Assembly (NCBI RefSeq): GCF_012489685.1
Contig: NC_080041.1
Coordinates: 105,741,760-105,805,759 of the forward strand
Length of the DNA stretch: 64,000 nt
Reading direction: 5' to 3'
Origin: Lotus japonicus
Taxonomy: Eukaryota; Streptophyta; Magnoliopsida; Fabales; Fabaceae
Shown: positions 11,931 to 63,900 of the stretch, one piece after another
Layout of the letters: each line of letters starts with the position of its first letter
Position numbering within the stretch: position 1 is the first letter of the stretch
The notes under the pieces: generated by a model
What the model saw: the letters and a program-made list of their open reading frames with translations, nothing else
Told to the model about the DNA's origin: nothing
The model's database searches: none
Made by a program: the position numbers and the translations under genes

Positions 11931-12143
11931 CTTCTTCCCCACTGTCATCCCTTTCCGAGACCCCTCTTCACTTCCCTAATCGCTTACCAAACTCCTTCTG
12001 CCCACTTCCGCTCCGGAGCCGTCGCTTATCACCCTTTCCGCTACCCACTCTTCACATCCTACTCCGGTGAGTCCCACTGTCTTTATCTTTACATCGCACA
12101 CATACTGATCTTTTCTTTTCTTTCACCTCACTGTCTTCTAAAA

Positions 12144-15485: not shown

Positions 15486-18400
15486 TCAACTATAAAAGTA
15501 GCGCAAGCTCAAACCATTGAACGATCGAGGTAACCGCCTCCCATCAAGCTCTTCTAAGTGATAGGCCCCATTACCAAGAACTTTAACAATGCGGTAGGGC
15601 CCTTCCCAGTTGGGAGTAAGCTTGTTCCCCGGGGCTCCCGATCGCCACTTGAGGACCAGGTCGCCAACCTGCATATCTCGGACGCGAACCCTGCTGTTGA
15701 ACTTTGCCGCCACGCGCTGCTTCATCGCTGTTTCCCGAATGTGCGCCTCGTCGCGCGTTTCCGACAAAAGGTCCAGCTCCACCGCCATGTTGGCCTGATT
15801 TTCCTCTTCAAAACCTGGTCGAGTCCGCCATGTAAAGTTGTCAATCTCCACCGGCAACATGGCATCTACCCCGTAGGTCATTCTAAAGGGGGTTTCCCTT
15901 GTAGTAGATTGCTCGGTGGTGTTGTACGACCACAGCACCGCCGGAAGTTCATCCAACCAAGCTCCCTTAGCCTCCGCGAGCCGTCGTCTTAGTCCTCGTA
16001 GGATTACCCTGTTTGCAGATTCCACCTGCCCGTTCGTCTGCGGATGCTCAACAGAGGCGAACCTCATCTGTATGCCCATTTCCTTGCAGAACTCCCTTGT
16101 TTGACTGCTTGAAAACTGGGTCCCATTGTCAGATACGATCGCCCTTGGGATCCCGAACCTGCAAACAATACGCTTCCAGTAGAAATTAACTATCTTTGCA
16201 GAAGTAATCTTGGCCAAGGGTTCAGCCTCAATCCACTTAGTGAAGTAGTCCACCGCCACCAATATAAACTTCATTTGTGCCCTGGCGGTCGGGAAAGGTC
16301 CAACTAGGTCCACACCCCACATGGCGAAAGGCCACGGGGCGCTCATCGTTACCAACTCTTTTGGCGGTGCCTTAGACAAATCCGCGAACACTTGACACTC
16401 CTTGCACTGCTTCACGAAGTCCATACAATCTTTCCTGAGGGTGGGCCAGTAAAAACCCGCCCTCAACACTTTGCAAGCCAAAGACCTTCCCCCGATGTGG
16501 CTCGCGCACACTCCTTCATGTACTTCAGACATTATCGCTTCGTACTTCTCTGGCGATACACATTTCAACAATGGCGTCGAGAAACCACGGCGATACAAGT
16601 GTCCGTCAATGAGAGTATAGTGACTCGCCTCCCGCTGCTGCTCCTTCGTGCATTGCTCCACTTCTGCCGGGTCCCCCGCCAAGATAGATATTATGGGATC
16701 CATCCATGTTCTCCCTCTGTTTACGCAGGACATGAGCTCGCCTTCGATGCTTGGGTACGCCAGCGTTTCCTGAATCACACTTTTGTTATTGCCGGGCTTC
16801 CGCGTGCTCGCCAGTTTGGCTAGCGCGTCCGCCCGCTGATTTTCTGCCCGAGGAACGTACTCCACCACGACCTTTTGAAAGAGTGTCATCAAATACCGTA
16901 CCCGCTCAAGGTACTTGATCAGATTAGGATCTTTGACCTGGAAAGTTCCCTTCACTTGATTCTCCACCAATTGTGAGTTCGTTCTTATCAACAAACTCCT
17001 GATCTTCACTTCCCGCGCCAACTTCAATCCGGCGATGAGAGCTTCATATTCTGCTTGGTTGTTCGTTGCTTTGAACTCGAATTTCAGGGATTGCTCCAAC
17101 ACTAGTTCCCCCGGCCCTTCTAACGTTACTCCCGCGCCGCTGCCACTACTATTGGAGGATCCATCCACGAAGAGAGTCCACTGAGTGTCCACTCTTTCAA
17201 ACCGATCTGGAGTCAACTCGACCACAAAGTCAGCTAGTGACTGCGCACCAACCGTGCCCCGCTTATCGTATTGCAAACCATACTCTGACAATTCAACCGA
17301 CCAGGCGACCAATCTACCTGATAAATCCGGTTTTTGTAATACTTGCCTCAAGGGCAAATCCGTCCGCACCTTCATGGGAAAACTCTGAAAATAAGGTCTC
17401 AACCGCCGGGCGGTGATGAGGACCGCCAGCGCCGCCTTCTCAATTTTCTGATATCTGACCTCCGCGCCCTGGAGTGTGTGACTAACAAAATAAACAATTC
17501 GATGCTCGCCATCTATCTCCTGCAACATCACAGAACTCAGAGCACTATCGCTCACAGCAAAATACAAATGCAGCGGGTGTCCCTGTATTGGTTTCGACAA
17601 GATCGGCGGTGACGATAGGAGTTCCTTGAGGCGAACGAAAGCTTCCTCACACTCCGCCGTCCACTCGAATGCGACATTCTTGCGAAGACACTTGAAAAAA
17701 GGAAAAGATCTGTCACCAGACTTGGGAAGAAACCGAGATAAAGCTGCTATTCGCCCCGTCAAACGTTGGACTTCTTTCACATTGGAAGGGCTTTTCATCT
17801 GCTGAATCGCCTTGCATTTTTCTGGGTTTATCTCGATTCCTCTGGATGTGATCATGAATCCCAAAAACTTACCCCCCTGAACACCAAAAGAGCATTTCTC
17901 CGGATTGAGGCGCATACTGTGCTTCCTTATTTCGCCAAATGCTTCCTCCAGATCTTGATGATGGTCTAAACCTCGTACTGATTTAACAATCATGTCATCG
18001 ACGTAAACCTCCATGTTTCTTCCCACCTGCCCAGCAAAAACCCTATCCATCAATCTTTGGTAGGTAGCCCCAGCGTTCTTTAGTCCAAACGGCATGGTGC
18101 GATAGCAATAATTGACTCTGGCAGTCATAAAAGCCGTTTTGTCCTCGTCTGCCGGGTGCATGCGGATTTGATGATAGCCAGAATAAGCATCCATCAAGCT
18201 AAGCAGTTCGTTGCCCGAGGCACCATCAACAAGGCTATCGATGCTGGGAAGGGGATACGAATCTTTTGGACATGCCTTGTTTAAGTCTGTGTAATCTACA
18301 CACATCCGCCATTTCCCGTTCGCCTTCTTTACCATTACGACGTTCGCCAACCACGTCGGATACTTCACTTCCCTGATGAACTCTGCCGCCAACAACTTGT

Positions 18401-20852: not shown

Positions 20853-20997
20853 CCAAACCAGAAACGATGCAAACTCGATCGGAGAACCAACACTAGTCAC
20901 AGAATCAAAATCGGAAAACCAGAGAATTGCCTAATCACAATCAGAGGTAACTTCATGCACCATCAATCCACGTGAATGGGAGTAGAAAGTTTACGGT

Positions 20998-25479: not shown

Positions 25480-27132
25480 AATCACAACTTGAGAAAAAAA
25501 TTAATCATAATAATTATTATAATAATTAAAAGTAAAATTTACTCCCCATAAAAAAAATAAAGTAAAATTTACTCACATCATAAATAACAATATTAATAGT
25601 TACTAATTGACTCACATTATTACTTTCAAAAAAATAATTGACTCACATTATTAACCTTTATATTATTTATTATATTAATTATTAATTGTAAAAAATTTCA
25701 TTTTCTTATATTTAAAATTTAATACAATACTATTTAAATTTTAATTATTAATCACAACTTTAGGAAAAAATTAAATAATAATTAATAATATGTAAAATTG
25801 ACTTGACTTTTACATTAATAACGATATTAATTAGTAGCTAATAATACTTTGTATTTATAAATTTGTAAAACTTTTCAAATTCTAATATGTTAAGATTAAT
25901 AGTATCTAATTATTTTCTTGAACGAATTATTTAATTATTAATCAGTTGAGAATTTTTTTAAACATAATGAATGAAAATAATAATTTTTTATATATAACAA
26001 ATTTATTAAGTATTTAAAGTTAGAATACCGTCAATCAACAAAAAAGATATAATACCAAAAAAAGTATTAGGGTTTAATATATCTAATGACTATATATATA
26101 TATATATATTTCATTTGAGTTTTGTTATTGCATTAATAATAAGATTAATTATTTGGGTGCTAGTAACAATGATAAATTTTTTTTGTTTGAACTATAGGTT
26201 GATAGTTTGATTTTTATAAGTGGCATGTGAGACATTTGATTTTCACCACATAGAGTCGAAATTGTGAAAATAACTTACCGCACCATAAAATAGAGCTCTA
26301 ATATTATTTATTAAAATGTCTCAACACAATTATTTTATATTCTATTATATTTTATAATTTAAAAAAATTAATATTTCTTTATTAAAAATATCATGATTTT
26401 TTGTATAATGTTAAAAAATGTTGTAAATAAACTCGTGAACTCATATTATATCTAGTATTACCTTTGTTTCTTGTTAACTGTCAACTTTGAATTTTTTTTT
26501 TTGTTCTTAGATATTTGTTCACTTATCATTTCAAAGGAGCATTAAATGTTTTTTTTTCCTAATAGTGTCATCGTAGAAGCAATAAATGAGGAAAGATAAA
26601 ACACATTATAGATGGTCCATAAAAAAACGCATTATAGAGGGTAAAATAGGAAAACAAATAATACTTTTTTGAAAATTAAAAAAATTAATCACATTTTTTA
26701 ATATGTGTGTTTCTTATCTTCCTGTACAGTTAAATAAGAATGAAAGTAATATATTTTTATTTTGACCATGTATGGAATGAATTGGCAACGTTGTTGTTTT
26801 CATTCCTCCATTAATTCTTATTAAGTTCTTCCTTATTTCAATAAAAAAATGGTTCTTCCTTTTGACCAAAAAGGAAACTTCATTAATAGTTTTAAAATCA
26901 CAATATCTTCCCTCTTCTCTTTCCATATTATTTCTTTGATGCCTTCTTGAAGCATCAAGCCAACTTTTCCTTCTACAATCACTCAAACACTCTTCTCAAT
27001 TCTCATATCATCCTGAGTGACACACATACTCACGGTGACGGTACTAGACATTGCGGTGGATACCCTGGTCTAGAAAAAAAAGAGAAACACAACACACTCC
27101 TCTATTGAATCTCAAAAGGCCAAACAGAGAAG
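25480..27132. other. AT-rich intergenic DNA and 5' region of the GT47 gene
   Basis: Very AT-rich, with a (TA)n run at about 26090-26110. The last 130 bp before 27133 are less AT-rich and should be the leader of the next gene. No other feature supported. Confidence 0.55.
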
Positions 27133-28710
27133 ATGGTCAAGCCTCCATTGAAGAATTCAAAATGCTCTGATCAACTCCGGTTAGTGTTTCTCACAGTCTT
27201 TGTTTTTTATGTGTCATTGCTTCTCTTGGAAAATTATTTCTCTGTGACTGGTCACCATGGTGTCACCTTCTCCATTTTCAACATGCAAAATGATGCAACA
27301 AGGAAAGTTGTTGTCTACACCAATCAAAACAATGTAACAAGTGAGGCCTTGGATAAACCAAATTGCATCACAGAAAATTTCACAGAGAATAACAATGTTG
27401 AAGAACTTGTTAAAGAGTCCCCCACAAGAAATTTGGATCCATGTTCAGGAAAATACATCTATGTTCATGATCTTCCTAAGAGGTTCAATGAGGATTTGCT
27501 GAAGAATTGTCACACTCTCTCGAAGTGGACTAATATGTGCCCCTATGTGTCAAACTTAGGCCTAGGCCCTAAGGTTATTATTGACAAATCAAAAAGAAGA
27601 GTGCTTTCCGAGAAAAGTTGGTATGCAACTAATCAGTTTACACTTGAAATCATTTTTCACAACACAATGAAGCATTACAAGTGTTTAACCAATGATTCTT
27701 CACTGGCTTCTGCTGTATATGTACCTTACTATGCTGGTCTTGATGTGGGTCAATACCTTTGGGGATTCAATGTTTCAGTGAGAGATTCTTCACCAAAAGA
27801 GCTTGTAAAGTGGCTGGGAAAACAACCTCAATGGAAAAAATTGTGGGGTAGAGATCATTTCTTTGTTGGAGGGAGGATTGGTAATGATTTCAGAAGAAAA
27901 ACAGAAGAGTATGATGATTGGGGCTCGAAACTAATGTTCTTACCAGAAGCCAAAAACATGTCAATTTTGCCAATTGAATCTGGTGGTCCATATGGAAATG
28001 ATTTTCCAATTCCATATCCTACTTACTTTCATCCTTCAAAGGATGTTGAGATTTTCCAGTGGCAGGAGAAAATGAGAAAAGTGAAACGGCCTTATTTGTT
28101 TACATTTGCTGGTGCTCCAAGGCCTAATTCAACAACCTCCATCAGAAATGAGTTAATCAAACAATGCCAATCTTCTAGGAGTTGCAAATTTCATTATTGT
28201 TATGGTCATAAAGATAATCGCAATCACTGTGATGATCCTGTGCAAGTAATGAAGGTGTTTCAGAGTTCAGTTTTCTGTTTACAGCCTCCAGGGGATTCAT
28301 ACACTAGGAGATCAATTTTTGACTCAATTTTGGCTGGTTGTGTTCCTGTTTTCTTTCATCCAGAGTCAGCATATAACCAATATTTGTGGCATTTTCCGAG
28401 AAATGGTTCTAGCTACTCAATATACATACCAGAAAGTGATGTTAAGAAAGTGGTGCTCAATGAAACATTGTCCAGAGTTCCAGCAAGTGAAGTTTTGGCA
28501 ATGAAAGAGGAGGTTATAAGGCTTATTCCAAGGATAATATATAGCAATCCAAGGTCTAGATTAGAGGCTTTTGAAGATGCATTTGACATTGCAGTTAAGG
28601 GAATTCTTGGGAGAATAGAAGCAATAAGAAGGGAGGTTAATACAAATGTTGAAATTTTTTCTGGGCTTGGTTTTGTGAATATGAACAATACAAGTTCTTC
28701 AAGTGCTTAA
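27133..28710 (+). CDS. Xyloglucan galactosyltransferase-like GT47 protein
   Basis: Intronless, 525 aa. A short cytosolic N-terminus is followed by one membrane anchor (about residues 17-37, LVFLTVFVFYVSLLLL), then a stem with N-glycosylation sites and the exostosin/GT47 domain (about 95-490): YIYVHDLP near the start, VPYYAGLD, FFVGGRIGNDF, FTFAGAPRPN, and the donor-binding part FCLQPPGDSYTRRSIFDSIL followed by AGCVPVFF. This is a type II Golgi protein expected to move galactose from UDP-Gal to xyloglucan side chains, as MUR3 and XLT2 do. Length (525 aa) is nearer XLT2 than MUR3. Which xylose it modifies cannot be read from sequence. Start is the first in-frame ATG, in good context before the anchor. 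Confidence 0.9.
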   Translation: MVKPPLKNSKCSDQLRLVFLTVFVFYVSLLLLENYFSVTGHHGVTFSIFNMQNDATRKVVVYTNQNNVTSEALDKPNCITENFTENNNVEELVKESPTRNLDPCSGKYIYVHDLPKRFNEDLLKNCHTLSKWTNMCPYVSNLGLGPKVIIDKSKRRVLSEKSWYATNQFTLEIIFHNTMKHYKCLTNDSSLASAVYVPYYAGLDVGQYLWGFNVSVRDSSPKELVKWLGKQPQWKKLWGRDHFFVGGRIGNDFRRKTEEYDDWGSKLMFLPEAKNMSILPIESGGPYGNDFPIPYPTYFHPSKDVEIFQWQEKMRKVKRPYLFTFAGAPRPNSTTSIRNELIKQCQSSRSCKFHYCYGHKDNRNHCDDPVQVMKVFQSSVFCLQPPGDSYTRRSIFDSILAGCVPVFFHPESAYNQYLWHFPRNGSSYSIYIPESDVKKVVLNETLSRVPASEVLAMKEEVIRLIPRIIYSNPRSRLEAFEDAFDIAVKGILGRIEAIRREVNTNVEIFSGLGFVNMNNTSSSSA

Positions 28711-39724: not shown

Positions 39725-42700
39725 ATGGCCATGAAAGGACAGGGTATTGCTATTGGAATCGACCTCGGCACCACCTACTCCTGCGTCGGAGTGTGCAAGC
39801 AGCATGCTCGTATCGAAATCATCCCCAACGACCAGGGCAACCGGACCACCCCCTCTTACGTTGCTTTCACGGATTCCGGGCGCTTGGTCGGCGATGCCGC
39901 CAAGAACCAGGTCACCAGGAACCCCACCAACACCATCTTTGGTAGCATCCTCATCCTTATTTAATGTTTATGTTTCATAGATTTCACTTCATGTCAATTT
40001 TTCATAAGTTTCTAGCTTTTTTCATGTCACTGATTTATGACCACAGTCTGTTATTTGCAATCTTTACCAGTACATTCGTTGTTACTAAACTAAATAACTG
40101 ATTCTATTCAACTTTTGTTTAGCTTCATGAGATTTTGTTTTCATCTATGAATCTATTATTATTATTATATTATTATTATTATTATGCTGTAGTTGTGTGT
40201 TGGAGTTATTATGCTTTGTTGAGATAGTTTGCTTATTGGTTGATTGGATTAATTGGTGGTTGCAGATGCGAAGCGTTTGATTGGAAGGAAATTCTCTGAT
40301 GCTTCAGTTCAGACTGACATGAAGCTATGGCCATTCAAGGTCATTTCTGGTACTGTCGACAAGCCCATGATTGTTGTTAACTACAAGAGTGAGGAGAAGC
40401 AGTTCACTGCTGAGGAGATTTCCTCCATGGTCCTCATGAAGTTGCGTGCGATTGCTGAGGCTTATCTTGGTTCCACTGTGAAGAACGCTGTTGTCACTGT
40501 CCCAGCATACTTCAATGACTCTCAACGCCAGGCCACGAAGGACGCAGGTGTCATTGCGGGCCTTAATGTCATGCGTATCATCAACGAACCCACCGCTGCA
40601 GCCCTTGCCTATGGCCTTGACACGGGGGCCGACACTGTTGACTTTGACAAGGACGTGTTGATTTTTGACCTTGGTGGTGGTACTTTTGATGTCTCTGTTC
40701 TAAACATTTATAATGGTGTCTTTGATGTTAAAGCCACTGCCGGAGACACCCATCTTGGAGGTGAAGACTTTGATAACAGGATGGTTAACCATTTTGTTGA
40801 GGAGTTCAAGAGGAAGCACGAGAAGGACATTAGTGGGAATCCAAGGGCTTTAAGAAGGTTGAGGACTGCTTGTGAAAGGGCAAAGAGGACTCTCTCCTCC
40901 ACAGTACAGACCACCCTTGAGATTGACTCATTGTATGAAGGCATTGACTTCTACACTGCAATCACTCGTGACAGGTTTGAAGAACTCAACATGGACCTCT
41001 TCAGGAACTGCATGGAGACTGTTGAGCGGTGTTTGAGGGACGCTGAGATGGACAAGAGCAGTGTCCATGATGTTGTTCTTGTTGGTGGGTCTACTAGGAT
41101 CCCAAAAGTGCAGCAGCTGTTGCAGGATTTCTTCAACGGGAAGGAGCTCTGCAAGAGCATCAACCCCGACGAGGCTGTTGCTTGTGGAGCTGCTATTCAG
41201 GCTGCTATCTTGACCGGTGAGGACACTGAGGCAATTACAGAATTTATATTGTGTGATGTCACACCTATTTCACTTGGTGTGGAAACGGTTGGTGGTGTCA
41301 TGAATGTACTCATTCAAAAGAACCAAACGATTCCGTTTAAGAATGAGCGGGTTTTCTCGACCTACTCAGACAATCAGCCTGGTGTGTCTATCAAGGTGTA
41401 CGAGGGTGAGAAAACCTGTAGCAGGGATAACTACTTGTTGGGTAAATTCGAGCTTTCTGGCATTCCTCCTGCTCCAAAGGGTGTTCCTCAGATCAATGTT
41501 TGCTTTCATATTGATAACAATGGTATCTTGAATGTCTCTGCTGAGGACAAGACTACAGGGAATAAGAACAAGATCACTATCACCAATCACAAGGGAAGGC
41601 TCTCTAAGGAGGAGATTGAGAAGATGGTGCAGGAGGCGGAGAAGTACTATTCTACAAAAGATGCTCCAGATCAACACTTGAAGGCACAGGTAGAACATGA
41701 TACTTTCCATCATATTACAACACCATGTGTCCCAACTCCATCAGGTGTAAAGCCAGAACCATCAGAATACAAGGTTTCCTCAACTCCATGTGTGGAGTCC
41801 CTGAAGATAAGAGGTGTCCCAACTCTAGGTTCACTATGCTTTGACTCCACCCTTCCACATGTAGATGAGTTAGTCTCTTCTGGAAAATCTGGGTCCTCCA
41901 ATTCTACAAAAGAAGCCTCAGATCAACACTTGGAGGCACAAGTAGAGCATCATATTACAATAACAACCTCTAGTTTACAGTCATTCCCTTCTGGAAACTT
42001 GGGGTATTATTTTAAATCTACAGAAGAGGCTTCACAGAAGATTTTAAAGGGACTAAATGATGATAATTGCTATGCAATTGGATTGTATGGAAAGAGGGGC
42101 TCCGGTAAAACAACATTAATCAGAGCTGAGATGGAAGAGTATGAAAAGATTTATCATACAGTGATATTTCTCACTGTGTATGAGAATCAAGATATCAAGA
42201 GCATTCGAGTGGGAATTGCTAGCTCCTTGAACGTGTTTGAAAAAGATGACAGTGATGGTGCAAGAATAGTGAAAATAATTTCAGCATTAGAAAGGAAGGA
42301 TAGAACTACTCTAGTCATCTTGGATAATTTTCCATCAATGTCTAAACTGGAAGAATTAGGTATTCCTTATAAGAGCAAACAGTACAAGTTCCTTTTGACC
42401 ACTCGCCATGAGACAGACTGCACCTCAATGGGATGTGATCATTTGATTCTTTTGAAGCCCTTATCTAATAAAGAAGCTTTTGCCCTGCTACAAAAACTTT
42501 CAGGTGCTGACTCCCATATTGATCTAGTACGAGATGTTGCTTTTAAATGCAATGGCTTGCCGGGTTTGATTAAAGATGTGGCATCTTCCTTGAAAAATAA
42601 GTCTACTGTGAAGTGGGAAGAATCATTAGTTAGTTTAAGCCACTCAACAGCCCGCTACCAAATTTTTATCAGCTTCAGAGGATATGATACTAGAGAGATT

Positions 42701-43395
42701 TTCACAAACCATCTCTATGATGCTTTGTGTAAGGCGGGATTCCAAACGTTCAAAGATGATCAAGCATTGGAGGGCGGAGCCCCAATTGAGAAACTTCTTG
42801 AAGACATTGAAGAATCAAGGTTTGCAATTGTTATTTTGTCAAAAAACTTTGCAGACTCTAAATGGTGTCTTAAAGAACTTGTCAAGATTCTTGACTGCCA
42901 GAAGAGGAAGAAACAATTGGTTTTGCCAATTTTTTATGAAGTGGAACCAACCGACATAAGGCATCTAAAAGGGAGGTATGGTGAAGCTATGGCTGAACAT
43001 GAAAAAAAGTTAGCAAAAGGTTCTAAGACGGTACTGGAATGGACACTGGCTTTGAGTGATATTTCTCAATTGAAAGGAGAATATTTCAACATTTCCAACT
43101 TGAAAGAAGAGCACTACGAGAGGTAAGTAGTAAACTTTCAATAACTTTCAGTTAATCCATATTACTAAATTTTTCAAAAAGTTATCTTAAATTTTAAAAA
43201 TTTAAATTTTGTATATGTCTCACTTAAAGTTATCTTAGATTATAAAATATTTAAAATTTTGTTTATTTAAATATATGATGATAAGGTGTTGTACAAACAT
43301 TTTTCAGGGCCAGAGATGAATTTATTGGAAAGATCATAAGATTTGCCCTTAATAACAGACATCGCTTACATATACAAAGCATGTATATCAACTAG
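39725..43395 (+). CDS. Hsp70 - NB-ARC-like - TIR fusion protein, copy 1
   Basis: Exons 39725-39941, 40266-43122, 43308-43395 give 1053 aa; the first intron is at the NTIF|DAKR position used in plant Hsc70 genes. Residues 1-535 are a cytosolic Hsp70: IDLGTTYS (12-19), [12 protein letters not shown] (205-216), [12 protein letters not shown] (343-354), the beta substrate-binding domain and the first lid helix. The rest of the lid and the EEVD tail are replaced by a linker with an internal repeat (near 535 and 619). Next is an NTPase with GKRGSGKTT (681-689), LVILDNF (755-761) and GLPG (836-839), most like NB-ARC of non-TIR resistance proteins. Last is a TIR domain (868-1045) with FISFRG and WCLKEL, Glu943 at the NADase catalytic position. 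No LRR. One 2.86-kb exon spans all three domains, so the fusion is genomic. Function unknown; an immune role is inferred. Confidence 0.85.
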
Positions 43396-43636: not shown

Positions 43637-44060
43637 GTGGACCAATGGTATAGGATAAAATCTGATTCATAAAATCAAGTGATAAAGAGTATCTCAAATA
43701 CGGTAAAGAGAAGCAATGTAAAGAAAAGATGAAGAAGAGAAGAGAAGAGGAGGAAATGGAAGAATGGTAGTGCGCTAGGATTTACATTGTGAATGATTAG
43801 TTTTATTTAACTAAAAGATACTCCCAATCCTAAATATCTAGGATTAAGAAAAATGGTTAAATGTCTAGGATTAAGAAAATTGGACTTATGCTAAAAGTAA
43901 TCATTCACAATGTAAATCCTAGCGCACTACCATTCTTCCATTTCCTCCTCTTCTCTTCTCTTCTTCATCTTTTCTTTACATTGCTTCTCTTTACCGTATT
44001 TGAGATACTCTTTATCACTTGATTTTATGAATCAGATTTTATCCTATACCATTGGTCCAC
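43637..44060. repeat. Perfect 163-bp inverted repeat
   Basis: Arms 43637-43799 and 43898-44060 are exact reverse complements by eye, from GTGGACCAATGG to GTGAATGATTA, with a 98-bp spacer. A transcript would form a long perfect hairpin. Copy 2 downstream has only one diverged version of the arm (about 58475-58655), so the inversion arose after duplication. Confidence 0.85.
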
Positions 44061-44475
44061 AATGTAAGTACATTGTGCGCTAGGATTTACATTGTAAGTA
44101 CGTATGCTTAACTAAAAGTACTTACCATTTATCTTTTAGTTAAAATCCATTTAGCTAAAAGTACAATGTAAGTACAACGTATTTTAACTAAAAGATAAAT
44201 GGATTTTAACTAACTAGATAAATGGATTTTAACTAACTAGCGCACAAAGTACTTACCATTTATCTTTTAGTTAAAATCCTAGCGCACAGTGTAAGTACAT
44301 TGTGCGCTAGGATTTTATCCTATACCATTAGTTTTATTTAACTAAAAGATAAATACGTATTTGAGATACTCTTTATCACTTGATTTTATGAATCATTCAC
44401 AATGATTATGGTTAAATATGAGTAAGTCCATTTTACCTAAATATCTAGGATTAAGAAAAATGGACTTAACTAAAA
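44061..44475. repeat. Scrambled short direct and inverted copies
   Basis: Pieces of the preceding arms recur in mixed orientation: GTGCGCTAGGATTT, TTTATCTTTTAGTTAAAAT and its inverse, CTTACCATTTATC, and TTGAGATACTCTTTATCACT. It looks like repeated template switching from local sequence. Beyond 44475 the order again matches the copy 2 flank (ACTTACTCATATTTATAG, 58690). Confidence 0.65.
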
Positions 44476-44547
44476 GTACTTACTCATATTTATAGTAATG
44501 GGTGGTCTCCCAATCCTAATTAAATAAGAAAACACGGAAATAAATAA

Positions 44548-46423: not shown

Positions 46424-48949
46424 ATGAAGAACAGAAAGAGGTCTCGAGCTAGTGAGGATGTGGGGGCTACTGAGGATAGACACTGACGCTTACATGCTTC
46501 TAGCCGGCGCGGCGATCATGCTGCAACCACTCAGGCGGTGGAGGCTTCAGCTCCAGTTGATACTATGCAGTCGCTCATGGTAGAGTCTTCGGCTACAGTT
46601 GCCACTGTGCTGTCTACTAGAGGAGAGTCTTCAGCTCTAGCTATGGATGCGATTGTGCTGGATCCCGTGGTTGACCCTACTGATCCAGTTCCTACTCCGC
46701 CGTCTCCCATGGTTGAGTTATCTCCCCATGAGTCATCAGGCGAGGAGTCATCAGGCGAGGAGTCATCCAACGAGGATAGTATTCCTCCTCCTAATGTTGA
46801 TGTTGATGTCGTACCAGAGGAGGGGGCACAGGGTGGCGAGGAGGACCTGATCCAGAGGTTGCCGCCGTTTCCGGGGGGGCCTGTTGAGCTGTCGCTTCTC
46901 ACGCATTATGCTGATCACAAGGCTCCCTGGACGTGGCATGCACTCCTACGCACAGACGATCGGTATGAGGACCGTCGACACTTGAAGGTGGCCACAGTTG
47001 GGGGGAAGGTATGAAACCTTGCTTGTGATGGTGATTCAGACAGTCATAGGCGGGTTCGAGAGTTGATTGAGCAGACGGGTCTTCATCAGCTACCCTGGTG
47101 CGGCTACCCGGAGACAGATGCAGGCCTCATTTTAGCCCTTGTGGAGCGATGGCATGAGGAGACTAGTAGCTTCCACATGCCGTTCGGGGAGATGACTATC
47201 ACCCTGGACGACGTGTCGGCTCTTCTCCATCTCCCCATGGGGTCGAGGTTCTATACGCCTGGAATGGGGGAGAGGGACGAGTGTGCAGCGCTCTGCGCTG
47301 AGCTGATGGGAGGATCTGCTGCTCGCTATCATGCTGAGTTTGATACGAACAGGAGCCAGACTATTCGCTTTGGGGTCTTGAAGACGCTGTATGATGATGC
47401 GTTGGAGGGTATGTCTTAATTATTACTTGATTAAATTGTATCTATTGTTATTGTATTATTATAAACTGTTAACTTAATTCATTTCATTGTAGATCACCGA
47501 TACAAGGATGCTGCGTGGATTTGGCTGGTGAACCAGCTAGGCGCGACGCTCTTTGCTAGCAAGAGCGGAGGCTACCACACGACCGTGTACTGGATATGGA
47601 TGTTGCAGGATCTTGGTCGAGTGTCCGAGTATGCGTGGGGCGCGATTGCGCTTGCTACGTTGTACGACCAGCTTGGTCGAGCGTCCAGGAGGGGGACGAC
47701 ACAGATGGGAGGTTTCAGCTCGCTCCTGCTAGGATGGGCCTACGAGTACCTTTCTGACCGCGTCATTATCCGGAGGGCGGATCCGGACTACTCGCAGGAC
47801 CAGCCTAGGGCGTGGCGGTGGGTTACGTCCTGGGTCGGGCATGCAGGCCTCGATGAGAGGCGAGTGATGCTCGATGAGCTGACGGTGCATGACATTATAT
47901 GGATACTCCCCTACAAAAAGAAAGTTTCGTCCTCGAAACTCAGGGTTCCGTGAAAAGTTCGGGATACTGTTCCTTGATCTTATCTTCTAATTCCCATGTA
48001 GCGTCTCCCGTGTTGTTGTTCCATAACACTTTCACTAATGCAATATGCTTCCCTCTCAGCTGTTTCACTCTTCTGTCCCCAATGCTAATCGGTGGTGCCT
48101 CAAAAGTCAAATCATCCTTCAGTTCAACGTTGTCTGGCTCGATTACATGTGTCGGGTCTGGAATGTACTTCCTCAACTGCGACACGTGAAAAACATCGTG
48201 AATGTTGGAAAGAAACGGTGGTAGCGCAATCTGATACGCAACTGGTCCAACACGGCGAGTGATCTGGTAAGGTCCAATGAACTTTGGCGTGAGCTTCCAT
48301 TTGACTGTGCTGTTCGACGTCATCTACCAGAGATGGTTCTGCGCCAGTTTGGCTACATACAGGATGTCCCTCGACACCCCTCTGAGATCCAGACGATTGG
48401 GTCCCTTGCTGAGACCGCAGATGCTGCCTATGCTGACTTTGTGCCGCACCTGCGCCCTCGGGGGATCCCTGCTACTTATTCGGGAGAGGCTGTGGAGGAT
48501 TACATGAGGTGGTATAGCGGTGTGTCCCATCGGTTCATCATCCCTGATGATAGGAGGGAGGAGCTCAGTGCTGTGGTAAGTTTGAATTTTATTTTTCCAT
48601 TCAATTGTGATTTTTGTTCATGATATTTTATTTGTACCTAAACATGTATTGTACATTATTTTTGCAGACGGTTGTGCGTCGGGCCGTGGACTTGTTGGAG
48701 CAGTCACTGGAGGTGCTTGACGCTCTTGCAGTGGGCACGCATGCCCGATCCCTCATTAAGAGGGCGCTGGATCTTATTAGATCCAGTTCCTTCATTGGTA
48801 CCCAGGGAGTAGCCTTTGCTGCTGTCCGAGGAGCTGGAGCTCCGGGAGGCAGAGGTCGTGGAGGCAGAGCCCGTGGAGATGGTGCCCGTGGAGGCAGAGC
48901 TCATGGACCTAGAGGTCGTAGGGGGGCCGGTAGGGGTCGGGTCGAGTGA
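46424..48949 (+). pseudogene. Plant mobile domain (PMD/MAIN-like) gene, broken
   Basis: Begins MKNRKRSRASED; in-frame TGA codons at 46484 and 47012 break it. Exons end at 47408 (donor GTATGT) and resume at 47493; a later junction is 48575/48668. The domain is recognisable: LIEQTGLHQLPWCGYPETD, ALVERWHEETSSFHMPFGEM, TLDDVSALLHLPM, WAYEYLSDR, HLPEMVLRQFGYIQ. The C-terminus is Arg/Gly-rich (GGRGRGGRARGDG). Between W.PY at about 47900 and HLPEM at 48321 the coding sequence is replaced by an antisense retrotransposon piece. PMD proteins (MAIN, MAIL1 in Arabidopsis) help silence transposons; transposon-borne copies have unknown roles. This copy cannot make a full protein. Confidence 0.8.
47903..48320 (-). 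mobile_element. Chromovirus integrase C-terminus/chromodomain fragment
   Basis: Minus strand reads KLTPKFIGPYQITRRVGPVA, NIHDVFHVSQLRKYIPDP, VKVLWNNNTGDATWELEDKI and YPELF, then a stop and TTTCGAGGACGAAAC. This is the end of a Ty3/gypsy chromovirus polyprotein, including the chromodomain-like tail and the following untranslated motif. No LTR is attached. It lies inside the PMD gene in reverse orientation, replacing part of it. Confidence 0.85.
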
Positions 48950-51861: not shown

Positions 51862-52040
51862 AATAAAGCATCTACCTCAATTTGTGGTATCAATGGCAAA
51901 TGAGAGTGTACTTTTTGCCCTCTCACATGCACTTCTCAACCTTCTCAAGGCTCTTGCATTCCCAGTAATGTCCACTTTGTTCTTCCTCTTAAATTCTTAA
52001 ACAAAGTAGTCCACCATGCAGTTATCAATATCTTCTCCTG
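51862..52040 (-). pseudogene. Hsp70 ATPase-domain fragment
   Basis: Minus strand reads GEDIDNCMVDYFV-stop-EFKRKN, then [24 protein letters not shown] and, after a frame change, IEVDALF. It equals residues about 230-290 of Hsp70. One in-frame stop and one frameshift; no neighbouring Hsp70 parts. It is more like an ordinary Hsc70 ([10 protein letters not shown]) than the two fusion genes ([20 protein letters not shown]), so it is probably an independent relic. Confidence 0.8.
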
Positions 52041-52303
52041 CTAATTGCATTAAGTCAACTAAAAGGCTAACATATTTAAAGATGAATCCACATCAAACTA
52101 CATAAGATAAGATGCCAACTGCAAATAGACTAAAGGGCAAGTTCATGGTTAAGGGTGGATTAATCAACCTACACAACTGTGAAATCATGTAAAACATATT
52201 AAAACTTTATTTGCTAGAAGTAATGATTGATAGTACTTATATAACCACTTGACTGCAGACTTATATATTACTAATTTACTATAAGTACTTGAGTGCAGAC
52301 TTA

Positions 52304-53565: not shown

Positions 53566-56500
53566 ATGGTCGGAGAAGGAGAGAGTCCCGCTATCGGAAT
53601 CGACCTCGGAACCACCTACTCCTGCGTCGGAGTGTGGCAGAACGACCGTGTCGAAATCATCCCCAACGACCAGGGAAACCGAACCACCCCCTCTTATGTT
53701 GCTTTCACCGATTTCGAGCGCTTGATCGGTGATGCCGCCAAGAACCAGGTCTCCAGGAACCCCATCAACACCATCTTCGGTTGCATCCCCATCCTTATTT
53801 AATGTTTATGTTTCATTGATTTCACTCCGTGACCATTTTTCATAAATTTCTAGCTTTGTTATGTCACTTATTGATGACCATATTATGTTTTATTTGCAAT
53901 TTTTACTATTACATTTGTTGTTACTAAACAAAATAACTGATTCTATTCAACTTTTGTTTAGCTTCATCAGATTTTGTTTTCATCTATGAATCTATTAATA
54001 TTATGCAGTAGTTGTGTGTTGGAGTTATTATGATTTGTTAATGTTAAGGTAGTTTGCTTATTGGTTAATTTGATTAATTTGTGGTTGCAGATGCGAAGCG
54101 TTTGATTGGAAGGAAATTCTCGGATGATTCAGTTGAGAGTGACATGAAGCTATGGCCATTCAAGGTCATTTCCGGTCCTGTCGACAGGCCCATGATTGTT
54201 GTTAACTACAAGAATGAGGAGAAGCAATTCACTGCTGAGGAGATTTCCTCCATGGTCCTCATCAAGATGCGTGAGATTGCCGAGGCTTATCTTGGTTCCA
54301 CCGTGAAGAATGTCGTTGTCACTGTCCCAGCATACTTCAATGACTCTCAACGCCAGGCTACCAAGGACGCAGGTGTCATCGCGGGCCTAAATGTCATGCG
54401 TATCATCAACGAACCCACTGCTGCTGCCCTTGCCTATGGCCTTAACACGGGGGCCGCCTCCCTAGATTATGGGAAGAACGTGTTGATTTTTGACCTTGGG
54501 GGTGGTACTTTTGATGTCTCTCTTCTAATAATTTCTAATGGTCTCTTTCATGTTCAAGCCACTTCCGGAGACACCCATCTTGGAGGTGAGGACTTTGATA
54601 ACAGGATGGTTAACCATTTTGTTGAGGAGTTCAAGAGGAAGCACGAGAAGGATATTAGTGGGAATCTGAGGGCTTTAAGAAGGTTGAGGATTGCATGTGA
54701 AAGGGCAAAGAGGACTCTCTCCTCCACAAAACATACCACCATTGAGATTGACTCATTGTATAAAGGTGTTGACTTCTACACTACAATCACTCGTGACAGG
54801 TTTGAAGAGCTCAACTTGGACCTCTTTAGGAGTTGCATTGAGACTGTTGAGCGGTGTCTAAAGGACTCTAAGATGGACAAGAGCAGTGTCCATGATATTG
54901 TTCTAGTTGGTGGGTCTACTAGGATCCCAAAAGTGCAGTCACTGATGCAAAATTTCTTCAATGGGAAGGAGCTCTGCAAGAGCATTAGCCCTGAAGAGGC
55001 TGTTGCTTGTGGAGCTGCTGTTCAGGCTGCTATCTTGACTAAAGAGGATACTAAGACGATTCAGAAATTTTTGTTGATGGATGCCACACCCCTTTCCCTT
55101 GGTGTGGAAATTGTTGGTGGTGTCATGTCTGTACTCATTGAAAAGAACAAAACGATTCCTTTCACAAAGGAGCAGGTTTTCTCGACCTACTCAAACAACC
55201 AGCCTGGTGTGTCAATCAAGGTGTACGAGGGTGAAAGTATCTGTAGCAGGGACAATTACTTGTTGGGTAAATTTGAGCTTTCTGGCATTCCTCCTGCTCC
55301 AAGAGGTGTTCCTCAGATCAATGTTTGCTTTCATATTGATATTAATGGTATCTTGAATGTCTCTGCTGAGGACAAGACTACAGGGAATAAGAAAAATATC
55401 ATTATCACCAATCACAAGGGAAGGCTCTCTAAGGAGGAGATTGAGAAGATGGTGCAGGAGGCGGAGAAGTACAATTCTACAAAAGATGCTCCAGATCAAC
55501 ACTTGAAGGCACAAGTAGAACATGATACTTGCCATTATATTACTGCACGATGTATCCCATCTCCATCAGGTGAAAAGCCAGATCCATCAGAACACAAGGT
55601 GTCCTCAACTCCATGCGTGGAGTCCCTTATGGAAAATCTAGGTGCACATGTAGAGGAGTTAATCTCTTATGGAAAATCTGGGTCCTCCAATTCTACAAAA
55701 GAAGCCTCAGATCAACACTTTGAGGCACTAGTAGAACATCACATTACAATACCAACCCCAAGTTTACAAGCCTTCCCTTCTAGAAACATGAGGTATTATT
55801 TTAAATCTACATAAAAGGCTTCACAGAAGATTATAAAGGGACTAAAAGATGATAATTTCTATGCAATTGGATTGTATGGAAAAAGGGGCTCCGTTAAAAC
55901 AACATTAATCAAAGCTGAGATGGAAGAGTATGAAAAGAATTTTCGTAAAGTGATATTTCTCACTGTGTATGAGAATCAAGATATCAAGAGCATTCGATTG
56001 GGAATTGCTAGCTCCTTGAACGTGTTTGAAAATGATGACAGTGATGGTGCAAGAATAGTGAAAATAATTTCGGCATTAGAAAGGAAGGATAGAACTACTC
56101 TAGTCGTCTTGGATAATTTTCCATCAATGTCTAAATTGGAAGAATTAGGTATTCCTAATTATAAGAGCAAACAGTACAAGTTCCTTTTGACCACTCGCCA
56201 TGAGACAGACTGCACCTCAATCAGATGTGATCATTTGATTCTTCTGAGCCCCTTATCTAACGAAGAAGCTTTTGCCCTGCTACAAAAACTTTCAGGTGTT
56301 GACTCCCATATTGATATAGTACGAGATGTTGCTTTTAAATGCAATGGCTTGCCGGGTTTGATTAAAGATGTTGCATCTTCCTTGAAAAATAAGTCTATTG
56401 TGAAGTGGGAAGAAGCATTAGTTAGTTTAAGCCACTCAACAACCCGCTACCAAATTTTTATCAGCTTCAGAAGAAATGATACTAGAAAGATTTTCACAAA

Positions 56501-58231
56501 CCATCTCTATGATGCTTTGTGTAAGGAGGGATTCGAAACGTTCAAAGATGATCAAGCATTGGAGAGTGGAGCCCCAATTGAGAAACTTCTTGAAGCCATT
56601 GAAGAATCAAGGTTTGCAATTGTTATTTTATCAAAAAACTTTGCAGACTCTAAATGGTGTCTTAAAGAACTTGTCAAGATTCTTGACTGCCAAAAGAAGA
56701 AGAAACAATTGATTTTACCAATTTTTTATGAAGTGGAACCAACCGACATAAGACATCTAAAAAGGAGGTATGGTGAAGTTATGGCGGAACATGAAAACAA
56801 GTTAGAAAAAGATTCTAAGACGGTAATGGAATGGACATTAGCTCTGAGTGAGATTTCTCAATTGAAAGGAGAATATTTCAACATTTCCAACTTAAAAGGA
56901 GAGCACTACGAGAGGTATTTCTATAACTTTTAGTTAAATTCCACATTACTAAATTTGTCAAAAAGTTGTCTTAAATATTTGTTGAACGTTATGTTAAATT
57001 TAAAAAATTTAAATTTTGTATATGTCTCACTTAAAAAATGTTACTATTTTTACCAAAAAAAATATATGTTATTTGAATAAATTTCGGCAAATTAAACTTT
57101 CTGAAGAGAGCGAGAGTTTGCAATTTCTTCTTGTAATATTAATTAAACTTTTTTTTTGTTACTTGAGGAAAGCATATTAATTATAATTTGAAATCTTATA
57201 TTTAGTTTTGAATTTTTTTCGAGTAAAATAGTTTTTTTTTGAACTCGAGTAAAATAGTTAGGAGTTGTCTATATAGCACAAGCTTTTACTAAGATTAATG
57301 ATTAATTACCTCATTTATTATATTCTAATTATCATTGTAAATGCAAATTTTTTTTTGAAAGATTGTAAATGTAACTTTGTTATAAGGAATTTCGTGATTT
57401 TATTGTGTGTCGTTCAAGTATTTTTTTTTTACCTAAAAAAAGTATTTTTTTGTACAGTTTGACTCAATTTGTTCTAATCTTTTTTTTTTTAAAATGTAAA
57501 TCTAAAAGTTACTACCTTTAAGTTTTTTTTAATTTTAAATAAGAGCTTTTAAAAAATTTAAAACTATACAGCAGTTTTATTTCTTTTAGCTTCAAATGTA
57601 TTTTTTGTTGGGGAGAGTCACGGCGAGGACCCATGGGCCAAGGCTGAGAGGAGACACCAAAGAGATCTTGGACACCACATCTTAACCCAAAACCTTAAGG
57701 CATTAGGTTTATGGGTCCATCTCCTTATAAACTCTCTCTCTCACCTTAACTTCTTCGATGTGGGACTTGACTCCAACACTTGATTCCAACAATCTCCCCC
57801 TCAAGTGTGAGTCCCTCAACCACATCACCCATGGTCCTCCCGTCTGCGGAAGCTATCCCCACCTTGCACCGCCGTTCGCTGCCAACGGAACCCGCTACCT
57901 AGCCACACTGTTAGGAAGACTTTCGACACAAGGAGCCGTCATGGTCCCACGAACCATCGGCTCTGATACCACTTGTTGGGGAGAGTCACGGCGAGGACCC
58001 ATGGGCCAAGGCTGAGAGGAGACACCAAAGAGATCTTGGACACCACATCCCCAACATTTTTATGTTAAAAATTGCTAATAAAATATTTAAAACTTTGTTT
58101 ATTTAAATATATGATGATAAGGTGTTGTACATACATTTTACAGGGCCAGAGATGAATTTATTGGAAAGATCATAAGATTTGCCCTTAATAACAGACATCG
58201 CTTACATATACAAAGCATGTATATCAACTAG
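53566..58231 (+). pseudogene. Hsp70 - NB-ARC-like - TIR fusion, copy 2, interrupted
   Basis: Same structure as copy 1: exons 53566-53779, 54091-56914 and 58144-58231. The long exon has one in-frame TAA at 55812-55814, where copy 1 has GAA, between the Hsp70 part and the NTPase; the same frame then stays open to the end. The product up to the stop would be 645 aa, a lidless Hsp70 with [20 protein letters not shown] and [12 protein letters not shown] intact. Behind the stop the P-loop reads GKRGSVKTT (Gly to Val), while the TIR domain keeps WCLKEL. The second intron is enlarged by a TRIM insertion (57606-58056). Either the 3' half is a young pseudogene or two proteins are made; an ATG at 55872 could start a separate NB-TIR product. 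The Hsp70 half may still be functional. Confidence 0.82.
57606..58056 (-). mobile_element. TRIM retrotransposon in intron 2 of copy 2
   Basis: Miniature LTR element on the minus strand. Left (3') LTR 57606-57791 begins TGTTGGGGAG and ends CCAACA; right (5') LTR 57974-58056 is the same sequence with an internal deletion. Primer site TGGTATCAGAGCCGATGG (minus, 57971-57954) matches initiator tRNA-Met; a purine tract GAGGGGGAGAT lies beside the 3' LTR (57802-57792). TTTTT flanks both sides as target duplication. No coding sequence; mobilised in trans. Confidence 0.85.
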
Positions 58232-60909: not shown

Positions 60910-63900
60910 TTAAACAGAGAAGCATGTCTCATCCATCCTTTGAGGAACTGGTGTTTTGATGACCTGAAGAATTTGCACCACTTCTGCCATAGTAGGCCTG
61001 CTAGAAGGTATTTGAGAGGTGCACACCATTGCAAGCTTCAGAACTGGCAACACCTCATCGTCAGGGTACTCATGACTCATGCTTGGATCCACACATTCCA
61101 ACACATTCCCATGCTCAAGCAAAACCCTCACATGATCATTCAGTATCAGCACATTGTCTTCTCCATACTCCACTGGCCTCCTACCTGTCACCAATTCGAG
61201 GATCATCACCCCAAAACCATACACATCACATTTCTCATTGACCCTTAAGCTCTGGCAAGCTAATTCTGGGGCCACATATCCCAGTGCACTCTGAAACCTG
61301 TTACTCATCACATGCCTGTCTAGCTTTGTTAAAAGCCTAGCTAGCCCAAAGTCTGAGATCTTGGGGTTGAAATTTTCATCAAGTAAAATGTTGCTTGGCT
61401 TTATGTTGTAGTGAATGATTGGTGGTTTGAATGAATGGTGCAAATGGGCAAGCCCTTTTGCTGTTCCAAGCAAGATTTTGAATCTTATAGGCCAAGAAAG
61501 TGGAGGACTTGAAGGAAGCCTCTCATGTAGCTTGGATTGGAGGTTACCATTTGGTGCAAATTCAGAAACCAAAAACTGTAATTGAGGAGTCCAGTAGTAT
61601 CCTTTCAATGCTACTAGATTTGGGTGCTTTGCTTTGCCTAAGATTCTAACTTCCCTGTCAAAGTCTTCTGGATATTGGAGTATGTTTGAGGTAATAAGCT
61701 TCTTGATTGCTACAACCACCCGACCTGTTGAAACTTAAAGTGTGAGTAAGAAATAAGAAAAATAAATAACTAAATAAGAAAGTCCCACATTAGATGAAAA
61801 AGAAAGTGTTAAGCAGTAAATAAGTGAAATGACTCATACACCCAATACCTTAGGATTTTGGGTGAGAGATGTGGTGTTCATCACTAATATGGTTTACTCT
61901 TTGTCCAACATGGTGTAAAGGGAAAGCTTGGTGCTATGAAGCTCCCGCTATTCGCGAGGTCCATGGACGGGCAGATCCACTTTGTAGATCTAACGTAGAC
62001 AACCTTACCTTGCATTTTTTTTGCAGGAGGCATCCATGACTCAAACCTGTGACCGTAAAGTCACATGGCAGCAACCTTACTGTTGCGCCGAGGCTCGCTC
62101 TCTACTATGTGGTGATAAAAAAGCAAAATGATCCCCCCCTCCCTCGCTATAACACAGCCTGGGATAATGTTACACAATAAGACTACCTTGTGATGTTGAT
62201 GATCCCAATGGGACCTTGTAAACTGTTCCAAACACTCCTTCTCCAATCTCAGATGCTTTGTTGAGCAAGGATTCTGGATTGGTGATCCAATCAGGTGAGG
62301 AATGATGGGAATCAAACAGAACAAGCTTTCCTGTTGTTGGTGGAGCTCCTGATCTAGAAGAGCTTGAGCACATGCTTTCCAAAGCATTATCAACAAATGA
62401 TAGCCTTCTCCTCACAGAAACATTTAGCAGGCTAATAGCAATCACTCCTAGTAGAATGAGAAAGGATGCACAAATTGCTACAATAGCAGAAACACTGAAG
62501 AACCTGTGGTGATGAGTTGGGGTAGATGACACAGATGAGTCATTTCTTTGCCTTGGAGGACCGATTTGGTTGTTATAGGCATTTGGGTCTATTACAAGTG
62601 GCTTGGGGGCATTCATTTTACATGGACCCTTCAACAAGGGTGAGCAAATACCCAAGTTTCCTTCCAAGGAACTTTTGTCCAAGTTCTGAAATATGCTACT
62701 AGTAGGAAGCCTGCCTGTGAGCCTGTTATATGATATGTTCACAGCAAGAAGATTTTGAAGCATTCCAAGCTCCATTGGTATCTCTCCACTTAATTCATTG
62801 AATTCCAATTTCAGGATTTTGAGCTTGTTCAGCTTTGACATGGACTTTGGGATTGAACCTGTCAACTTATTGTGAGATAAACTCCTGCATCAAAATAGAT
62901 AGGAATCAGCACATGTTTGATTACTGTTTTATAAAACAGTTTCCAAAAACAAAAAATGAAGAAAACTCATTTGCAATGAACAGTATTAAAAATGTTAAAT
63001 TTTTAAAACTGAAATCCCAAAAAGATTCAAAATGTTTGTTTTTCCATTTTTAGTTTTCAAGTAATTCACTCTAATAGTTTTTTTTATTTTTATCTTCTTC
63101 TTCTGAAAAATAGGTTTTAAAATTTGTTTCTGAAAATAGATTTAAATTCAGAAAACTGAGAAGGGAATCAAACAAGCTCTCTTCTAAAAACATGTGTTCA
63201 CAATGATAGTAGAGATTGAGAAAAGGGAGGCATACAGCAAGTAAAGTGATGTGCAATTCCCAATCTCTTCTGGAATAGACCCCTTCAATGAATTTCCATC
63301 AAGTTGAAGGACTGCCAAATTTCCTGAATCACATAGATCTGGTGGAACAGGACCATACAAAGCACTGTTACTAAGATCTAAAACAGTTAGGTTCTGAAGG
63401 AGACCAAACTCTGGGGGCATCTGTGAGTGAAGATCATTATTCCAAGACAGGTTCAAGTATCTTAGCTTTGAAAGAAATCCCATTTCTGCAGGGATATTCC
63501 CTTGGAGATGGTTAGCTGAAAGATCCAATTTTGTGATAGTTTCTAAGAGCCTGCTTGAGCCTGCTGGAACTGAACCTGACAAATCATTATGGGAAAAATC
63601 TATTTCCTCCAATCCTAGGCCAAACAAACCCTCTGGTATGGTACCATTGAAACTATTACCTCTTAGCCTTATCACAGATAATTGTGTGCATGAAACCAAT
63701 GACAAAGGGATGTTTCCATAAAACTCATTGTTTGAGAGCTCTAGATATTCTAGACTAGTCATGTTCCCTATCCACTGAGGTAATTCAGTGGTTAAAAGAT
63801 TATTTGATGCCCTTAAATAGCTCAAAGAGTTAAGCCTCCCAAGTGACTGTGGAAGTTCCCCACTGAACTGATTATGGCTAAAATCCAACCTATTCAAATG

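Follow-up and report, generated by a model that had tools for sequence, protein, structure and literature searches.

The window analysed here, a 64,000-nucleotide stretch of Lotus japonicus DNA, contains at 39725-43395 on the forward strand a gene (copy A) in which an Hsp70 is joined in a single chain to an NB-ARC domain and a TIR domain. Its core is an uninterrupted frame of 957 codons (40253-43126), along which Pfam places HSP70 (E = 1.4e-198), NB-ARC (3.8e-23) and TIR (1.6e-44) from the N- to the C-terminus, the order that an earlier note on this DNA had claimed. The spliced exons 39725-39941, 40266-43122 and 43308-43395 translate letter for letter into database record P0001 (1053 aa), which carries the name 'heat shock 70 kDa protein 18-like [Lotus japonicus]'. 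The ATG at 39725 and the final stop codon, which ends at 43395, delimit exactly the span that the note had given, and the motifs that it cited are present in P0001. Eight equivalent splits reproduce P0001, and we chose the one with GT-AG at both introns (39942-40265 and 43123-43307); intron 1 splits the Asp codon of IFDAKRL, and intron 2 the codon of the Arg preceding the exon 3 tail. Where a single 2.86-kb exon had been described, exon 2 does hold the three domains, but a short third exon adds a tail. The features of copy A are these:

39725..39941, + strand: exon 1, with the start codon, the Hsp70 N-terminus and the first phosphate motif DLGTTYSC (spliced translation equal to P0001)
40266..43122, + strand: exon 2 (2857 bp), one open frame for the remainder of the Hsp70 ATPase domain, then its substrate domain, the linker, the NB-ARC and the TIR (Pfam, P0001 match)
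43308..43395, + strand: exon 3, the tail ending [28 protein letters not shown] and the stop (P0001 match)
39725..41224, + strand: Hsp70 nucleotide-binding domain, residues 1-392, spanning intron 1 (Pfam, motifs; border set by us)
41225..41641, + strand: Hsp70 interdomain linker and beta substrate-binding domain, residues 393-531, without lid (borders set by us)
41642..42004, + strand: variable linker, residues 532-652
42005..42652, + strand: NB-ARC (NBD and ARC1 only), residues 653-868 (Pfam, motifs)
42089-42115, + strand: P-loop GKRGSGKTT, in the NB-ARC of P0001
42311-42331, + strand: kinase-2 motif LVILDNF, in the NB-ARC of P0001
42548-42565, + strand: CNGLPG, in the NB-ARC of P0001
42653..43111, + strand: TIR domain, residues 869-1021 (Pfam, structure-sequence alignment)
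42875-42877, + strand: codon of the catalytic Glu943, in the TIR of P0001

Overall, P0001 consists of a lidless Hsp70, a linker, a CNL-type NB-ARC minus the winged helix and MHD, a plant TIR and a short tail. A full-length structure model of P0001 has a pLDDT of 57, and the domain packing is not readable from it. The HRLHIQ of the exon 3 tail ([17 protein letters not shown]) recurs in 12 of the 26 Hsp70-bearing records among the matches listed.

Further along the same strand lies a second copy (copy B, 53566-58231), with three exons as in copy A, and between the two copies lies a fragment on the opposite strand that is probably a relic. Copy B was not part of the earlier note's finding, and the related database records lay outside its view.

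53566..53779, + strand: copy B exon 1
54091..56914, + strand: copy B exon 2
58144..58231, + strand: copy B exon 3, a tail with residues identical to copy A
51883..52047, - strand: a 55-aa piece resembling Hsp70, with 67% identity to residues 235-289 of P0001

An in-frame TAA interrupts copy B at 55812-55814, just upstream of the P-loop of the NB-ARC, a motif that is also altered, to GKRGSVKTT; the truncated product of copy B is in the database as P0270 (645 aa). Over aligned codons, the two copies differ with dN 0.070 and dS 0.148, a ratio of 0.47 (bootstrap 0.38-0.61). By module, dN/dS is 0.38 (0.25-0.57) for the Hsp70 ATPase domain, 0.45 (0.23-0.86) for the substrate domain, 0.83 (0.43-2.27) for the linker, 1.05 (0.46-4.22) for the NB part, where only 6 synonymous changes enter, and 0.40 (0.17-1.21) for the TIR; the tail has no synonymous change and thus no value.

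Distribution of the architecture among legumes

Homologues were sought with residues 480-957 of the exon-2 frame as query; 7981 candidates were scored, 179 of which had E up to 0.001, and the best 120 of these were examined. This search reaches only sequences of similar length that share short words, with an upper limit on the number of candidates, and absences are thus not proof. The counts refer to records rather than loci, since some records may be alternative models of one gene, and the database rows are gene predictions as far as their names tell. The earlier note had proposed a search of legume proteomes for Hsp70 plus TIR, and ours returned at least 21 records with HSP70, NB-ARC and TIR by Pfam [21 of the best 120 of 179 matches: 6 from L. 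japonicus, 9 from Trifolium pratense, 4 from T. repens and 2 from T. subterraneum]. Five listed Trifolium records (P0025, P0026, P0030, P0031, P0052) have HSP70 and NB-ARC without TIR, which brings the Hsp70-bearing records among the matches listed to 26. Copy B and several Trifolium records are shortened or lack the TIR.

Given copy B in the window and the at least 21 three-domain records, with three Trifolium species among their sources, an assembly artefact is an unlikely source of the fusion, and the worry about such an error that the earlier note had raised is largely answered. On the sequence evidence, the Hsp70-NB-TIR fusion is a genuine gene architecture, as had been observed, and it defines a legume protein family for which we propose the name HNT. 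Its members are filed under names like 'heat shock cognate 70 kDa protein 2-like'. Among the matches listed, none of the 26 Hsp70-bearing records comes from Medicago, Melilotus, Pisum (Lathyrus oleraceus), Vicia or Cicer, and a search with CC-NB-TIR proteins does find CC-NB-TIR relatives in these genera. The lack of a listed three-domain record from Medicago, pea, chickpea and the vetches suggests that the fusion may be dispensable.

The individual domains are known, and their combination, order and family appear undescribed: in PMC full text under open licence (a scope apart from subscription papers and preprints), we found no description of an Hsp70-NB-ARC-TIR protein, in agreement with the earlier note, which knew of none, nor any description of the architecture under unusual NBS-TIR genes or an NB-TIR order. 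PMC9153377 describes architectures whose TIR precedes the NB domain, and it does not contain the word Hsp70. A passage of PMC2893199 uses 'CC-NBS-TIR' as a gloss of CNL, which looks like a slip.

Motifs and divergence of the three domains

All four ATPase motifs of Hsp70 (phosphate-1, connect-1, phosphate-2 and adenosine) are unchanged in P0001. In the 21-row Hsp70 alignment, phosphate-1 is unchanged in the 18 of 18 rows that include it, connect-1 in 20 of 21, phosphate-2 in 18 of 21 (the remaining three differ at the last residue) and the adenosine motif in 21 of 21. P0001 shares these ATP-site motifs with cytosolic plant Hsp70s such as P0280, and is about 78-83% identical to the ordinary plant records listed over residues 1-545, but differs from them in several respects. 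The lid helices are absent [the HSP70 match of the copy A frame stops at 537 of 599 profile positions], the EEVD terminus is found in 0 of the 26 Hsp70-bearing records listed, whereas P0280 ends IEEVD, the interdomain linker DLLLLD has become EFILCD (DLTLVD, ELTLVD, DLVLLD etc. in other rows), and an NB-TIR part is fused on. The 64 ordinary Hsp70s share 347 invariant positions, and P0001 has changed 17 of the 243 that lie in the ATPase domain versus 21 of the 104 in the substrate domain; across rows, leaving out P0021, which is misaligned there, the changes number 17-31 and 12-27, respectively, with P0022 an exception in that its 29 ATPase and 12 substrate changes are equal in proportion. A heat-shock promoter was considered and set aside: no clear heat-shock element lies in the 1.5 kb upstream of copy A or copy B, each having one 8-of-9 match where about 0.45 are expected.

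The NB-ARC of P0001 contains a P-loop, KFLLTTR and CNGLPG. GxGKT is present in 22 of the 23 rows P0001-P0023 and in 51 of the 60 CC-NB-TIR rows P0121-P0180, and the kinase-2 motif is LDN in P0001; among the 25 records in which the pattern was found, 20 have LDN and 5 have LDD. The ARC2/winged-helix region with its MHD is missing, the TIR starting right after ARC1 at residue 869; an MHD-like pattern matches P0001 only inside the Hsp70 (residue 339) and 0 of the 60 rows P0121-P0180. The Pfam scan of the copy A frame found no LRR, and P0001 ends 32 residues past the TIR. By sequence, the nearest solved NLR to this NB-ARC is the wheat G10 resistosome 9h2l (E = 4.1e-10); a RecA row ranks above it by summing repeated weak matches. 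This makes the CC-G10 type CNLs (9h2l; RPS2/RPS5 type), which according to PMC12856790 assemble as octamers, the closest in NB-ARC sequence among solved NLRs, but P0001 lacks their CC, ARC2 and LRR.

The C-terminal part of P0001 has a TIR fold. WCLxEL occurs in 22 of the 23 rows P0001-P0023 (P0023 stops inside the TIR, and two of the rows are records without Hsp70) and in 57 of the 60 CC-NB-TIR rows P0121-P0180. Glu943, which the earlier note had named as the catalytic residue, with exact numbering, aligns with E100 of RUN1, described as the putative catalytic residue in PMC7282519; the sequence of 7s2z (E100A) differs in that column. The P0001 TIR is a plant TIR with the catalytic glutamate and a putative NADase activity. 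It has the TIR fold and this glutamate in common with TNLs (RPV1, RUN1, Roq1, RPP1), in which, however, the TIR comes first and is followed by a full NB-ARC and LRRs, whereas in P0001 it comes last, behind a short NB-ARC and with no LRR.

To compare the modules between genera, we used 11 of the 26 Hsp70-bearing records. P0002/P0004, the closest pair across the two genera, has identities of 94.5% in the TIR, 87.2% in the NB part, 82.8% in the Hsp70 ATPase domain, 79.1% in the substrate domain and 69.1% in the linker. For each of the three remaining Lotus rows, the best pair again has its highest identity in the TIR (86.6-89.7%), which is therefore the best-conserved module in 4 of 4 closest Lotus/Trifolium pairs; the NB part exceeds the ATPase domain in only 2 of 4. 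The means over all 28 Lotus-Trifolium pairs are 80.0% for the ATPase domain, 79.7% for the TIR, 75.3% for the NB part, 73.7% for the substrate domain and 56.9% for the linker, the TIR mean being no higher than that of the ATPase domain because the TIR differs strongly between subclades. Six ordinary plant Hsp70s are 94.6-97.7% and 95.0-99.3% identical among themselves in the two Hsp70 domains. The Hsp70 of the family has diverged far faster than ordinary Hsp70s with its ATP-site motifs kept, and the TIR, the output end, is steady within a subclade. Such a combination is the pattern expected of a bait or sensor, and relaxed constraint could also produce it.

Origin of the fusion

A CC-NB-TIR search with alignment A1 as query matched 479 proteins, of which the best 120 were examined. 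We built a quick NB-TIR tree of 80 segments and a careful one of 38 of these, which we rooted on 16 CC-NB-TIR rows; in the careful tree, the two sides of the root each receive 100/100. A single clade of 21 rows (100/99) takes in all 19 Hsp70-bearing rows of this tree. The two members without Hsp70 are P0008, whose record sets in only where the Hsp70 part ends, and P0016, an NB-NB-TIR protein that joins one subclade weakly (84/65). The data do not reject a constraint that unites the Hsp70 bearers and P0008 in one clade (p-AU 0.34); the unconstrained tree requires 3 label changes, and just 1 suffices in 0% of 200 bootstrap trees. P0024, with a CC-like stretch at its start, adjoins the Hsp70 clade (22 rows, 100/100), a basal position that makes a loss of Hsp70 indistinguishable from a later gain.

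Two subclades, of 6 rows (99/95) and 11 rows (100/100), each mix Lotus and Trifolium, which indicates at least two lineages that are probably older than the parting of these genera. Lotus belongs to the robinioid clade and Trifolium to the IRL clade, whose split dates to roughly 50 million years ago, and the fusion is probably older than that split. Separate fusions in Lotus and Trifolium are disfavoured, since the genera mix in two well-supported subclades and the one-clade constraint is not rejected. In the quick Hsp70 tree, 21 rows lie on one side of a branch with an SH-aLRT of 85 [20 of the 26 records plus copy B; P0003, P0011, P0012, P0020, P0023 and P0052 left out], and on the other side lie 40 of the 64 ordinary Hsp70 records and both halves of P0244, one of them on a very long branch.

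In the NB-TIR tree, the sister group of the Hsp70 bearers is the legume CC-NB-TIR family, with which P0001 shares its NB-TIR core and common ancestry. Like P0001, these proteins (e.g. P0032, P0121, P0122) have an NB-ARC without ARC2 followed directly by the TIR, and from P0032 on their rows are 43-53% identical to P0001 in NB-TIR. Unlike P0001, they begin with a coiled-coil-like stretch of about 140-180 aa (judged by eye), which is missing in P0001, where Hsp70 occupies its place. Their source names include 'SUMM2-like', 'At1g52660' and 'nodulation protein'.

A still earlier step may be visible in legume TIR-TIR proteins (e.g. P0187), which have neither NB-ARC nor Hsp70, and whose second TIR is nearest to that of P0032. 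With the P0032 TIR as query, the second TIR outscores the first in 31 of 33 two-TIR proteins, and the best score is 228.9 bits on a second TIR versus 165.5 for the best TNL-length protein; the TIR-TIR proteins were collected with a CC-NB-TIR query, which biases the set towards such matches. For the TIR of P0001, the second TIR is higher in 26 of 33, the best score, 162.0 bits, falls on a first TIR and the best TNL-length protein reaches 154.1, so that it is hardly nearer to TIR-TIR proteins than to TNLs. A TIR-TIR origin is clear only for the P0032 TIR and not decisive for that of P0001, and a path from TIR-TIR through CC-NB-TIR to Hsp70-NB-TIR would therefore run by way of the CC-NB-TIR step. 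Of the 20 Lotus Hsp70, CC-NB-TIR and TIR-TIR records noted, 19 share the longest-sequence length value 137,250,648 and hence seem to lie on the same chromosome, as would fit exchange inside a single chromosome.

Proposed function and its alternatives

With a confidence that falls a little short of even, we propose from these sequence patterns that HNT proteins may be immune (or protein-damage) sensors, with the Hsp70 as bait and the TIR as output. Although lidless, the Hsp70 would still bind ATP as well as J-domain proteins, and a pathogen protein directed at Hsp70 could engage it; such engagement, or the loss of normal Hsp70 partners, would alter the packing of the NB module, upon which TIR domains would be brought together, cleave NAD+ and yield products that signal via EDS1-type helpers. 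The NB part, without ARC2 and LRR, is probably an oligomerisation or nucleotide-state module rather than a complete NLR switch. Hsp70 is a target of the effector HopI1 (PMC8150971), an example that concerns Pseudomonas on Arabidopsis, not legumes. NLRs with integrated domains, such as RRS1-WRKY and RGA5-HMA (PMC6032283), likewise carry a host protein that effectors may target on an immune-type protein, but these are complete NLRs with a small extra domain, whereas P0001 combines a large ATPase with only NB-TIR. Several observations count against a sensor: the faster change of the Hsp70 may reflect lost constraint and not selection for sensing, the NB part exceeds the ATPase domain in only 2 of the 4 closest cross-genus pairs, the ATPase domain equals the TIR and exceeds the NB part over the 28 pairs, the NB dN/dS between copies A and B is 1.05 (0.46-4.22), copy B and several Trifolium records are shortened or lack the TIR, and the fusion may be dispensable. 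Among the readings, we rank the sensor first, followed by a neutral carrier, decay, self-chaperoning and co-assembly.

The CC-NB-TIR sister group, with the coiled coil as the part that appears to have been exchanged, and the TIR as the best-conserved module in all four closest cross-genus pairs would also suit an N-terminal replacement without sensing, in which recombination set the start of an Hsp70 gene (promoter, first intron, soluble partner) before a CC-NB-TIR gene, so that Hsp70 serves expression and solubility and NB-TIR works as in its relatives. This we consider unlikely, since a mere carrier has no need of near-perfect ATP-site motifs amid drift, and neither copy has a clear heat-shock element upstream.

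The stop before the NB P-loop in copy B and the five listed records with Hsp70 and NB-ARC but no TIR raise the prospect of a decaying chimaera, a functionless fusion of which some copies yield Hsp70-like fragments and others are pseudogenes. Full-length frames in both Lotus and Trifolium, the near-constant WCLxEL in rows P0001-P0023, a Lotus/Trifolium TIR identity of up to 94.5% and the overall A/B dN/dS of 0.47 make this improbable.

The earlier note had offered two readings, a self-chaperoned TIR switch or an Hsp70 sensor. In the former, Hsp70 would fold its own NB-TIR or keep it inactive until proteotoxic load (heat, misfolded proteins) releases the TIR; the protein does have the ATP site and most of the substrate domain, and PMC6032283 discusses Hsp70 as a possible partner when NLRs mature. 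However, a protein that has lost the lid and EEVD and whose LLLL interdomain motif is altered is unlikely to run a normal chaperone cycle, and the invariant positions of P0001 have changed more in the substrate than in the ATPase domain, P0022 being the exception. These losses, together with the kept ATP-site motifs and TIR, favour a sensor with TIR output, which fits better, and the self-chaperoned switch, which fits less, is in our view a rather poor prospect. That the fusion mainly co-assembles with TIR-TIR, CC-NB-TIR or TNL proteins as their regulator is very improbable, given the kept catalytic Glu, even if the Lotus records seem to share a chromosome and inhibitory partners can hold TIR-only proteins inactive (PMC12856790).

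Returning to the sensor, a broader formulation, which we hold more tentatively, is that a core chaperone was turned into a receptor in a legume lineage: an ATP-binding, lidless Hsp70 would report attack on, or overload of, Hsp70 and J-domain proteins and set off a TIR NADase by way of a minimal NB module, with no LRR, the whole having arisen by swapping entire N-terminal modules before the TIR exon (CC-NB-TIR to Hsp70-NB-TIR, perhaps TIR-TIR earlier). The family also carries a warning for annotation, as Hsp70-NB-TIR genes are filed as ordinary heat-shock proteins, and with its intermediate architectures it allows the stepwise building of an immune-type protein to be traced. If the sensor reading is true, plants would wire a central chaperone straight to TIR cell-death signalling, and the family would offer a natural test of microbial Hsp70 targeting in legume infection or symbiosis.

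Repeats, retrotransposon-like sequences and neighbouring frames around the two copies

The fusion gene under study (copy A, Hsp70-NB-ARC-TIR) and the second fusion copy, which carries an in-frame stop (copy B), share the window with the following features.

11451-14692 (+), gypsy-type frame (PF04195)
15486-20930 (-), polyprotein frame, retrotransposon-like and 1814 codons long, recognized by eye
27109-28710 (+), GT47 exostosin-type glycosyltransferase
43700-44500, cluster of AT-rich repeats, both direct and inverted, immediately downstream of copy A, seen by eye
47465-47953 (+), plant mobile domain frame
57604-58080, short element in intron 2 of copy B whose two ends form a direct repeat, seen by eye
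60910-62889 (-), protein kinase frame and leucine-rich-repeat frame

The protein kinase and leucine-rich-repeat frames look like a single receptor kinase. The intron 2 element also contains, by eye, a stretch similar to a methionine-tRNA primer site, reversed, and it resembles a terminal-repeat retrotransposon in miniature.

Relatives without Hsp70

Two Lotus proteins, P0016 and P0024, lack Hsp70 and lie within the clade of Hsp70-bearing NB-TIR proteins or adjoin it. P0016 has two NB-ARC domains and a TIR domain. P0024 is coiled-coil-like at its start, and its long linker of repeated, Ser/Thr/Pro-rich sequence has, by eye, the motif SSNSTKE in common with the linker of copy A. Within the Hsp70-less sister group of legumes (CC-NB-TIR), five Melilotus officinalis proteins among the matches listed, the best 120 of 479 (P0122, P0131, P0140, P0146 and P0210), bear the source name 'nodulation protein', on which no paper stood among the matches listed for open-licence PMC literature.

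FtsZ-like pieces and tandem Hsp70 units

Among the fusion-family matches listed (best 120 of 179), FtsZ/tubulin-GTPase pieces follow the TIR domain or replace it in Trifolium P0006 (Pfam match, E 4.8e-9), P0008, P0025, P0026 and P0031. FtsZ-like tails were also seen by eye in P0005 and P0021. The Trifolium pieces are perhaps a downstream FtsZ fragment merged in by gene prediction, or possibly an additional fusion; the C-terminal part of P0006 had no match in the Lotus window.

In Lotus P0244 (1102 aa) and T. pratense P0011 (1407 aa), two tandem Hsp70 units precede the linker/NB part. Because the first Hsp70 of P0244 clusters with ordinary Hsp70 in a quick Hsp70 tree and partly retains the lid, it may be the mark of a donor or an intermediate, or else may reflect a joined prediction.
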